From NCBI GenBank assembly GCA_019115305.1, contig DXDW01000028.1:1-35890 (forward strand): a stretch of DNA of 35,890 nucleotides, in the 5' to 3' direction. The notes beneath the pieces are model-generated. The model ran no database searches, was not told the origin of the DNA, and worked only from the letters and a program-made list of their open reading frames with translations. The DNA comes from Candidatus Anaerofilum excrementigallinarum (GTDB taxonomy: Bacteria; Bacillota; Clostridia; Oscillospirales; Ruminococcaceae). Of the stretch, positions 28,945 through 33,463 are shown one piece after another. Each line of letters begins with the position of its first letter. The stretch's first letter is position 1. The translations under genes and the position numbers were made by a program.

Positions 28945-29484
28945 TCAATAGTTCTGGGCCCGCAGCACGAAGTAACCCTGGGGATGAGCGCAGACGGGGC
29001 AGACCTCGGGAGCGGTTTTGCCGATGTGGATGTGGCCGCAGTTGGTGCAGATCCACACCTGCTCGGTCTGGCGGGCGAAAACGGTGCCCTGGGCGATGGA
29101 TTCGGCCAGAGTGCGGTAGCGCTCCTCGTGCTCCTTCTCGATGGCGCCTACCTTCTCGAACAGGAAGGCGATCTGATCAAAGCCCTCTTCCCGGGCAGTC
29201 TGGGCGAAACCGGCGTACATGTCGGTCCACTCGTAGTTCTCGCCGGCAGCGGCGTCGGCCAGGTTGGCCTCGGTCTTGGGGATGGAACCGCCATGGAGCA
29301 GCTTGAACCAGATCTTGGCGTGCTCCTTCTCGTTGTTGGCGGTCTCCTCAAAGATAGAGGCGATCTGGTTGTAGCCTTCCTTCTTGGCGGCGGAGGCGTA
29401 GTAGGTGTATTTGTTGCGGGCCTGGCTCTCGCCGGCAAAAGCGGTCCAGAGATTCTGTTCGGTCTTGCTGCCTTTCAGTTCCAT
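28945..29484 (-). CDS. rbr: Rubrerythrin
   Basis: 179-residue non-haem iron protein that reduces hydrogen peroxide in anaerobes. The ferritin-like domain has the di-iron ligands in [24 protein letters not shown] and [15 protein letters not shown]. The C-terminal rubredoxin domain has [12 protein letters not shown] and [15 protein letters not shown], two CxxC pairs for a one-iron site. ATG 29484 gives [12 protein letters not shown], the usual family start; an ATG 9 bases upstream (29493) is closer to AAGGA and would add three residues. The 335-residue track ORF reads on through perR in the wrong frame. It is the second gene after perR, so induction by peroxide through loss of PerR repression is likely. 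Confidence 0.96.
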
Positions 29485-29513
29485 AGTTTCCATTTTCCTT
29501 TCGCTGTATGATT

Positions 29514-29930
29514 TTAGTGTAAGTGCGGAATTTCCGCGTCTTCCGATTTGGTCTGGCAGGCGGGGCACCGCCCGTAAAATACCAGCTGGCAGCCCTCGAT
29601 GGCAAACTGGCTCTGACTCTGGGCCACCTGCTGCAAGTGCTGGGTGGGAAGCTCCATCCAGATATCTTCCAAAGCGCCGCATTCGCTGCACAGGATATGG
29701 TGATGATCCTCCAGGGTGTGGTCGTAGTGGTCGGCGCCTCCCGGTACGCCGATGCGCCGCAGCATGCCGCGTTCGGCCATGGAGGACAGGTTGCGGTACA
29801 CCGTGGCCCGGCTGATGTTGGGCAGCCGCTGGACGACCTGCTCGTATACCTGTTCGGCAGTGGGATGGTTTGCCAGTTGTTTTACTGCCTGCAGGATCGT
29901 TTGTTTCTGAATGGTATTGCGGGTTTCCAT
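29514..29930 (-). CDS. perR: Fur-family peroxide regulator PerR
   Basis: 138-residue Fur-family repressor. The winged-helix part contains [34 protein letters not shown]. The metal region [20 protein letters not shown] carries sensor-site His/Asp residues, and two CxxC pairs (CSECG and CPACQ) form the structural zinc site. The gene pairing with rubrerythrin and the [11 protein letters not shown] helix fit PerR better than Fur or Zur. AGGAG lies 8 bases before ATG 29930. It is the first gene of a perR-rbr unit, probably self-repressed: a PerR-box-like sequence lies in its own leader. Confidence 0.9.
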
Positions 29931-29963
29931 TGCAAATTCTCCTTTTTGGCAAAAACAGCTATT

Positions 29964-31090: not shown

Positions 31091-31123
31091 GAAAAGCCCG
31101 CCTTGGGCAAGGCCAAAGCGGGC
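31091..31123 (-). terminator. Terminator downstream of the SPFH gene
   Basis: On the minus strand GCCCGCTTTGG and CCAAGGCGGGC form a stem followed by TTTTCTTT. It lies about 75 bases after the SPFH stop. Confidence 0.8.
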
Positions 31124-31196: not shown

Positions 31197-32090
31197 TTAC
31201 TTGGCGTCGCTGATAAGCTCCTTGATGGAGGCCACAGTGCCGGCCAGGTTCTGCATATCGCTGGGGATGATCAGCTTGGTAGCCTTGCCGTCGGCCACCT
31301 TGGCCAGGGCTTCCAGGCTCTTGAGGGCCAGCACCTGGTTGTTGGGGGCGGCCTCGTTCAGCAGCCGGATGGAGTCGGCCAGAGCCTGCTGCACCTCGCG
31401 GATAGCCTGGGCTTCACCCTGAGCTTCCCGGATGCGCTGCTCGCGCACGGCGTCGGCCCGCAGGATGGCGCTTTCCTTTTCGCCTTCGGCCACCAGAATG
31501 GAGCTGCGCTTTTCGCCTTCGGCCCGCAGGATGGCTTCCCGGCGCTGACGCTCGGCCTTCATCTGCTTCTCCATGGCGTCCTGGATCTCGGCCGGCGGGA
31601 TGATGTTCTTCACCTCAACCCGGTTGACCTTGATGCCCCACTTGTCGGTGGCTTCGTCCAGGATGGAGGTGATCTTGGTGTTGATCACGTCGCGGCTGGT
31701 GAGGGTGTGATCCAGCTCCAGCTCGCCGATGATGTTGCGCAGGGTGGTGGCGGTGAGGTTTTCAATGGCGGACAGGGGACGCTCCACGCCGTAGGTGTAC
31801 AGCTTGGCGTCGGTGATCTGGAAGAAGACCACGGTGTCAATCTGCATGGTGACGTTGTCGCGGGTGATCACAGGCTGGGGCTTGAAGTCCACCACCTGCT
31901 CCTTCAGGCTCACCTTTTTCACTACGCGGTCGATGAAGGGAACCTTCCAGTGGAAACCGGCGTCCCAGGTTTTGTAATAGATACCCAGCCGCTCCACCAC
32001 ATAAGACGTGGCCTGGGGTACGATGGCGATGTTGGCGATGACGATCACCAGGGCGACGATGAAGATGCCCAACAGGATATAACCGAACAT
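31197..32090 (-). CDS. SPFH/Band 7 (stomatin-like, QmcA) membrane protein
   Basis: 297-residue stomatin/prohibitin-type scaffold protein. One N-terminal membrane helix (residues ~3-25) is followed by the Band 7 domain: YVVERLGIYYKTWDAGFHWK, VVDFKPQPVITRDNVTMQID, LRNIIGELELDHTLTSRDVI. An Ala/Glu/Arg-rich coiled coil (about residues 175-250, with EGEKESAILRADAVREQRI) and the AIREVQQAL tail complete the usual layout. Such proteins form large ring-like assemblies in membrane microdomains. The gene lies 36 bases after an NfeD gene, and SPFH and NfeD proteins are a conserved pair. It is the last gene of the padR operon. Confidence 0.95.
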   Translation of the reverse strand: MFGYILLGIFIVALVIVIANIAIVPQATSYVVERLGIYYKTWDAGFHWKVPFIDRVVKKVSLKEQVVDFKPQPVITRDNVTMQIDTVVFFQITDAKLYTYGVERPLSAIENLTATTLRNIIGELELDHTLTSRDVINTKITSILDEATDKWGIKVNRVEVKNIIPPAEIQDAMEKQMKAERQRREAILRAEGEKRSSILVAEGEKESAILRADAVREQRIREAQGEAQAIREVQQALADSIRLLNEAAPNNQVLALKSLEALAKVADGKATKLIIPSDMQNLAGTVASIKELISDAK

Positions 32091-32126: not shown

Positions 32127-32951
32127 TTAAACCGGCACAGCGGTGTGTTCCGGCACGACCTCCAGAGTCGCGCTTTCCACAGCCGTCACGATGCACCAGC
32201 TTCCTTCCGCAATGGTTTCGGCAGACCGGGCTGCCCAGTCCACACCTTCCAGCCGCACCCGGCCGGGGGAATTGGGGGTAATGGTGCGGATCACCTGGGC
32301 CTTTTTGCCCACGTTCAGCTCCGAGTTGGTGGGCTGCTGGCGGGGGGTGACGTATTTGCTCACCAGCGGCCGGGTAAACAGCAAAGTGAGCAGCGAAACC
32401 GCCACAAACACCGCCATCTGCACCAGCACCGAGTCCATCACCACCGATACCAGCAGAGCAACCAGAGCGCCCGCTGCAAACCAGATGGATACCAGCCCCA
32501 CGGTGGCGATCTCCACCGCCACAAAGAGCACGCACAGAACAAGCCATACAATGGTACTCACTGACATATCAAACACCTCGCTCATTTCAATGGCGGTGCT
32601 GTCGGTGACCATTTCCACCACCCAGGGAAGAAACAGGGTAAACAGTCCCCAGCAGCACAGCGCCGTGATAAACAATAGTAAAATGGATTTCAGGGTATGC
32701 AGCCGCCGGACATACCGCCGCAGTTCGGCGGGGGAAAGATCGGCCAGGGCCTGGTCGGCGATTTCGGTGGGGGAACCGAACTGCTGGCACAGCTGCCCGA
32801 AGGTGGCATGGGGGTTCTGCTCCAGAAATTCCTCCACGCCTATCTCCAGGGCCTCCACAGCCCTGCGCCGCACCGAGGGGGAACACACCAGCCCCTGGCG
32901 CACCTGGCGGAAGTATTCCCGCGCCGCCGGGTTTTGCTCATAAGATTTCAT
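32127..32951 (-). CDS. HAAS (DUF1700)-like / NfeD fusion membrane protein
   Basis: 274 residues in one open frame. Residues 1-~85 are a soluble helical domain like HAAS/DUF1700 proteins, the usual partners of PadR regulators (VEEFLEQNPHATFGQLCQQFGSP, EIADQALADLSP). Hydrophobic helices follow (about 88-113), then an NfeD protein from about residue 129: VWLVLCVLFVAVEIATVGLVSIWFAAGALVAL, two more helices, and a C-terminal OB-fold-like domain (NVGKKAQVIRTITPNSPGRV). An internal ATG at 32567 has GAGGTG 6 bases upstream and would give a normal 146-residue NfeD. The gene start overlaps padR by 14 bases, so it is coupled to it. Domain calls come from pattern reading; a sequencing error joining two genes is less likely because no frame change is needed. 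Confidence 0.85.
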   Translation of the reverse strand: MKSYEQNPAAREYFRQVRQGLVCSPSVRRRAVEALEIGVEEFLEQNPHATFGQLCQQFGSPTEIADQALADLSPAELRRYVRRLHTLKSILLLFITALCCWGLFTLFLPWVVEMVTDSTAIEMSEVFDMSVSTIVWLVLCVLFVAVEIATVGLVSIWFAAGALVALLVSVVMDSVLVQMAVFVAVSLLTLLFTRPLVSKYVTPRQQPTNSELNVGKKAQVIRTITPNSPGRVRLEGVDWAARSAETIAEGSWCIVTAVESATLEVVPEHTAVPV

Positions 32952-33330: not shown

Positions 33331-33359
33331 ATTGAAGCACAAAACAGTGCCGCGGTCAA
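33331..33359 (-). promoter_or_regulatory. Promoter of the padR operon
   Basis: On the minus strand TTGACC and TTCAAT with a 17-base spacer. It lies about 35 bases before the padR start. Confidence 0.6.
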
Positions 33360-33424
33360 TACTTTGCCAAAAAAAATATTGAAATGCACAAATCAACTGC
33401 AAAAAATCCGGCGAAATATCCAAT

Positions 33425-33463
33425 AAAAAAGGCGCCTGCCCGCCAAAAAGGGCGGACAAGCGC
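33425..33463 (-). terminator. Terminator of the GH13 gene
   Basis: On the minus strand GCGCTTGTCCGCC pairs with GGCGGGCAGGCGC (two G-T pairs), then CC and six T residues, about 20 bases after the stop codon. Confidence 0.88.

Follow-up and report, generated by a model that had tools for sequence, protein, structure and literature searches.

A HAAS-like domain joined to NfeD behind a padR gene in Candidatus Anaerofilum excrementigallinarum, with a putative internal start for free NfeD

Ravi et al. (2024, PMC11237479) described the HAAS-PadR dyad as an alternative to two-component systems, in which HAAS is located at the N-terminus of transmembrane (TM) sensors and is joined to a variety of TM or sensory domains; NfeD or SPFH occurred 0 times in the main text. 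In Listeria, PadR proteins repressed their own operons about 150-fold, and one of these repressors has a DUF1700 partner (PMC6624303). Operons of NfeD with SPFH are classical, and so are fusions of ClpP to NfeD (PMC2636767).

Here we analysed a 35,890-nucleotide stretch of Candidatus Anaerofilum excrementigallinarum DNA (the window), in which one open reading frame (ORF) joined a HAAS-like domain to NfeD (Table 1).

Table 1. Coordinates of the features of the padR, fusion and SPFH locus in the window
Feature	Position	Strand	Remark
Intrinsic terminator after SPFH gene	31096..31123	-	
SPFH/Band_7 protein, 297 aa, NfeD partner	31197..32090	-	PF01145, E=1.6e-41
Fusion HAAS-TM-NfeD	32127..32951	-	Uninterrupted ORF, 274 aa
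NfeD, 3 TM helices and OB domain, possible separate 146-aa product	32127..32567	-	PF01957, E=8.4e-12
Putative internal Shine-Dalgarno GAGGTG	32574..32579	-	Doubles as Glu-Val codons
TM helix of HAAS half, residues about 89-112	32616..32687	-	K/R before, none after until residue 194
HAAS/DUF6120-like helical domain, residues 8-70, F-GSP (GxP) motif	32742..32930	-	
padR, winged-helix regulator, 119 aa	32938..33297	-	PF03551, E=5.6e-19
Putative promoter: -35 TTGACC (33359-33354), 17-nt spacer, extended -10 TGC-TTCAAT (33336-33331)	33331..33359	-	Read from sequence
Candidate PadR operator, inverted repeat AATATT-N11-AGTATT, overlaps -35 box	33358..33380	.	Sequence repeat
Intrinsic terminator of upstream amylase	33432..33463	-	Sets amylase apart from padR operon

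The fused reading frame and its neighbours

The coordinates confirmed the earlier note in that padR overlaps the start of the fusion ORF (by 14 nt) and that an SPFH gene follows downstream. SPFH adjoined nfeD in all four Anaerofilum genus members, and no terminator-like site was found between the fusion and SPFH genes. Considering the terminators located beyond the amylase and after the SPFH gene, padR, the fusion and SPFH look like a single transcription unit. Elsewhere in the window (28945-29952, minus strand), a Fur/PerR-like ORF was found beside a rubrerythrin-like reading, both from translations read by eye, and this looks like an ordinary peroxide-stress pair.

Both halves had been proposed for HMM search, the N-terminal half as a HAAS/DUF1700-like domain. 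The whole fusion matched the Pfam NfeD model (PF01957) above its cut-off (E=2.7e-11). For the N-terminal half the best Pfam model was DUF6120 (PF19615; E=3.5e-5, 24.2 bits), just under the 27-bit cut-off, and the HAAS model (PF22564) scored 13.8 bits in the window copy, also under its cut-off of 27. Among the 14 aligned N-terminal halves (window and 13 relatives), DUF6120 matched 13 (best 5.1e-14) and HAAS matched ten (best 1.6e-7), both at E<=0.1. The assignment thus comes from the matches of the relatives, as the window copy alone is insufficient. Judged by these profiles the N-terminal half is HAAS-like, so this part of the proposal held; DUF1700 was given up, since it is not the nearest model and DUF6120 is closer.

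The joint alignment of HAAS and NfeD split the HAAS rows, and the HAAS half was therefore modelled on its own. AlphaFold2 gave helices at residues 8-20, 25-45, 51-58 and 61-70 (pLDDT 83.0), with the motif G59-S-P61, of which G59 was invariant and P61 nearly invariant through the 14 sequences. A PDB fold search with this 128-aa model, which includes the long TM helix, revealed no match at E<=0.001. In most relatives a PadR gene was located upstream of the HAAS-type gene. One relative (G155, L046/L036) contained a tandem pair of HAAS-type genes behind a single PadR.

AlphaFold2 of the full fusion (mean pLDDT 88.1; pTM 0.51, so that the placement of the domains relative to each other is uncertain) predicted a helical HAAS bundle, a long helix running through the first TM segment, three NfeD TM helices (131-149, 155-171 and 175-200) and a beta OB domain, that is, 1+3 TM helices in the whole fusion. 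Through Foldseek, the best PDB match was YbbJ of the E. coli QmcA-YbbJ complex (8z5g, E=2.6e-7), an entry that holds 26 YbbJ chains; the NfeD part also matched 3cp0 and 3wwv. The NfeD half showed the traits of the NfeD1a type, with three hydrophobic N-terminal stretches and 146 aa from the internal start (expected 140-150 aa). Lys and Arg residues were found at positions 78-88 and again from 194 on, with zero in between. By the inside-positive rule, both soluble domains, HAAS and OB, are thus probably cytoplasmic, and a HAAS with one TM helix joined to NfeD would be topologically sound.

The fusion was sought in related genomes and found again in Anaerofilum sp. An201 (G135), whose full-length copy is 58% identical. 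An201 was isolated from chicken caecum, and its genome belongs to a set obtained from pure cultures (PMC6069880). Near the junction, the indels between the two sequences were one and two whole codons long, as coding constraint across the junction predicts. In the other two genus genomes (G018 and G199) nfeD stood alone in the gene order glgP, amylase, nfeD, SPFH, and neither padR nor HAAS was found at that locus. The earlier claim of a single-frame fusion therefore survived: we met no separate HAAS and nfeD genes divided by a stop or frameshift, and the relatives with a separate nfeD have no padR-HAAS, which argues for a lineage-specific fusion rather than a frameshift. One might suspect an assembly or sequencing error that merged two adjacent genes, considering how fragmented the assembly of the window genome is (2.47 Mb, 245 contigs, 84% complete). 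However, the independent isolate genome carries the same fusion, on which ground a sequencing error was rejected, and no relative has a separate HAAS followed by an adjacent nfeD for an indel to merge; such an error is extremely improbable. From these sequence comparisons we conclude that the fusion is genuine and that another species has conserved it.

Searching 394 genomes of the order with a fusion profile gave one full-length HAAS-NfeD among the matches listed, the window itself. DUF6120 was found in 6 of 391 class genomes, and the window held the only DUF6120-NfeD frame among them. A scan of the genome contigs with the single fusion sequence gave no match.

The putative internal start of NfeD and a second type of fusion

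An internal start giving a normal-sized NfeD had also been proposed. Ahead of the in-frame ATG at 32567, which would yield an NfeD of 146 aa, lies GAGGTG (32579-32574) at 6-nt spacing. The anti-SD energy was -11.5 kcal/mol at this internal site and -11.2 at that of the An201 fusion, and the ordinary starts of the two fusion operons gave -10.3 to -12.9. As background we took 112 in-frame internal ATGs in long ORFs of the window, for which the mean was -4.1 kcal/mol and only 7% were at or below -9. The ribosome site AGCGAGGTGTT is common to the free-standing nfeD of G018 and G199 and the internal start of the fusion: the stand-alone starts are preceded by AAAGCGAGGTGTTTTTATG and AAAGCGAGGTGTTGTTTTATG, and the internal starts by GAGCGAGGTGTTTGATATG and AAGTGAGGTGTTTCAAATG. 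With this energy, and the same site in two congeners, the proposed start was borne out as a sequence feature beyond chance.

In the two fusion species taken alone, conservation of SEVF could also reflect a constraint on the protein. In G018, however, stop codons lie in frame upstream of nfeD, and the motif there is leader and not protein. Since the same site precedes the stand-alone nfeD, as leader in G018, the site inside the fusion appears to be nfeD's own; on this sequence evidence the internal ribosome site is the ancestral nfeD site, which now also serves as Ser-Glu-Val-Phe codons.

A second type of fusion was found among other members of the same order. We opened sixteen long NfeD frames in relatives and checked their N-terminal extensions; most of these extensions were non-coding overhang and were rejected as fusions. 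Among the sixteen, three frames encoded an XRE helix-turn-helix, a TM segment and NfeD in a single ORF (G544, L102; G516, L101; G034, L097), and a fourth came from the profile search (G267, L103). In G522, a member of the genus of G516, the profile match covered the NfeD part only. All four XRE-NfeD fusions contained AAAGGAGG, AGAGGAGG or AAAGGGGGA in frame, followed by an ATG in the same frame where NfeD starts. A literature search gave no relevant paper on a fusion of NfeD to a helix-turn-helix domain. By their sequences, the XRE-TM-NfeD frames are a second fusion type, independent of HAAS-NfeD.

Whether the internal site is used may be argued in both directions. Since it descends from nfeD's own ribosome site, its presence could be explained without any function today, and a stream of ribosomes from upstream can hinder internal initiation; the full-length fusion would then be the only product that matters, and the site a little-used leftover of the ancestral start. 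On the contrary, GAGGTGTTT-N3-ATG is intact in the two species, with 83% nucleotide identity over the SEVF-x-M codons, despite 43% over the TM/linker stretch (residues 85-123). The four XRE-NfeD fusions, which are of other origin, retain AAAGGAGG-type sites too, and every relative has free NfeD as the norm. We therefore hold the leftover reading to be quite improbable, and it is quite likely that both products, the full fusion and free NfeD, are made.

Promoter, candidate operator and origin of the cassette

The padR promoter of the window aligned with the nfeD promoters of G018 and G199 beyond all 500 shuffles; the An201 promoter exceeded 500 shuffles against G199, but not against G018. Considering this homology, the padR-HAAS cassette sits between nfeD's promoter and nfeD's ribosome site. 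A generic promoter scan missed the padR promoter, of which the -10 box TTCAAT has no A at position 2.

An inverted repeat, AATAYT-N11-AGTATT, overlapped the -35 box of the padR promoter in the window, An201, G138 and G025, and a weaker version was found in G020; this candidate operator was deduced from few related promoters. No such repeat was seen ahead of three padR genes that are more distant (L037, L039 and L043), and the nfeD promoters of G018 and G199, where padR is missing, do not have it either. In the whole 2.47-Mb genome of the window there was 1 exact match, located at the padR promoter. Binding of PadR to this repeat is likely, and through it PadR probably controls the padR, fusion and SPFH operon.

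The history of the cassette can be read in two ways. Outgroups without padR favour a gain of padR-HAAS in the fused pair, which was joined in the tree with an ultrafast bootstrap of only 58. A padR-like SD and a half operator in the G199 leader hint at a loss in G018 and G199. This nfeD leader (L050, about 2440-2550) retains the padR-like SD GAAGGGGAG together with the right half of the operator-like repeat, without padR, and a scar of cassette loss is possible.

Other linkages of regulators with nfeD were also revealed. A separate padR without HAAS was located directly upstream of nfeD-SPFH in other genera (G073, L093 963-1346; G148, L096 508-993). In the genus g25 a PadR-HAAS pair was convergent to SPFH-nfeD and not fused (G138, L051 4660-7675; G025, L052 4970-9469). 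Judged from gene order and fused frames, regulators and nfeD-SPFH are linked repeatedly.

The fusion might also be trivial: a mobile dyad of PadR and HAAS could have inserted ahead of nfeD with loss of its stop codon, HAAS then being a passive passenger and PadR answering a different (e.g. soluble) signal. Related genera such as that of G020 do carry PadR-HAAS dyads without linkage to nfeD, and the cassette is placed precisely between promoter and ribosome site of nfeD. But the codon-sized indels keep the frame across the junction, the operator-like repeat is on the promoter of the operon, and the separate PadR beside nfeD-SPFH, the convergent g25 pair and the XRE fusions suggest a recurrent regulatory link. 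We regard the trivial explanation as unlikely and prefer a regulatory role of the fusion.

Proposed function and comparison with known systems

To our knowledge, the stimuli of bacterial SPFH/NfeD rings are still poorly understood. We might speculate that the operon of padR, haas::nfeD and SPFH is autoregulated, with a HAAS-PadR switch wired to the NfeD/SPFH complex and dual translation of the fusion; the chance that this whole model is correct seems about even. PadR would repress its own promoter through the AATAYT-N11-AGTATT repeat. The fusion would place a cytoplasmic HAAS on a TM anchor, followed by an external loop, the three NfeD TM helices and the cytoplasmic OB domain, and the OB domain would pack against SPFH subunits. 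If NfeD packs as YbbJ does, an unmixed fusion would put HAAS on every position, and extra free NfeD from the retained nfeD ribosome site would dilute it; the SPFH ring would then be filled mostly by plain NfeD, with HAAS-tagged NfeD in the minority. Upon a change in ring assembly or membrane state, HAAS would capture or release PadR, and the SPFH/NfeD output of the operon would be adjusted as feedback. Contact between HAAS and PadR is quite likely, feedback on the SPFH/NfeD state is conceivable but somewhat doubtful, and membrane sensing by the fusion is what we infer from the arrangement.

As NfeD is fused to a regulator partner and its operon has a candidate operator, the state of the ring should be readable from the activity of the promoter. 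The two gut Anaerofilum species with the fusion can probably make both the sensor-bearing and the plain NfeD, and the scaffold operon may be adjusted to the membrane state. An operon's own ribosome site can turn into a dual-product switch once genes fuse. Because NfeD is also fused to another regulator (XRE), the arrangement seems to be a general wiring rather than an accident. Very tentatively, NfeD-SPFH complexes could be sensory inputs for regulators, recruited in at least two fusion events, with the nfeD ribosome site kept and with few regulator-bearing subunits among many plain ones in each ring, through which the state of the ring would reach gene expression.

Comparing with the HAAS-PadR dyad as described in PMC11237479, the locus likewise has a PadR gene and then a HAAS-type domain with the GxP motif N-terminal to TM segments; here the C-terminal partner is NfeD, which does not occur in the main text of that paper, and the N-terminal half is nearest to DUF6120 and not to DUF1700. 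The LltR-lmo0600-lmo0601 system of Listeria (PMC6624303) likewise consists of an autorepressing PadR and then a DUF1700/HAAS membrane protein, but its effector is a DUF1700 protein with a DUF4097 protein, without the NfeD or SPFH of the fusion operon.

With NfeD1a-SPFH1a and YbbJ-QmcA (PMC2636767; 8z5g) the window shares a short NfeD of 3 TM helices and an OB domain, and a paraslipin-like SPFH gene behind it; it differs in the extra cytoplasmic signalling domain and TM helix of NfeD, and in padR heading the operon. In ClpP-NfeD (NfeD1b; PMC2636767) NfeD also has an N-terminal fusion partner, which there is a protease and here the partner of a transcription regulator. The gene spaO (PMC13059759) gives a full-length protein and a C-terminal isoform through an in-frame internal start, as predicted here; the isoform in the window equals the ancestral stand-alone gene, and its dual production is a prediction. 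The locus thus combines a signalling dyad that is already known with a partner domain new to it, NfeD, and with a retained internal start.
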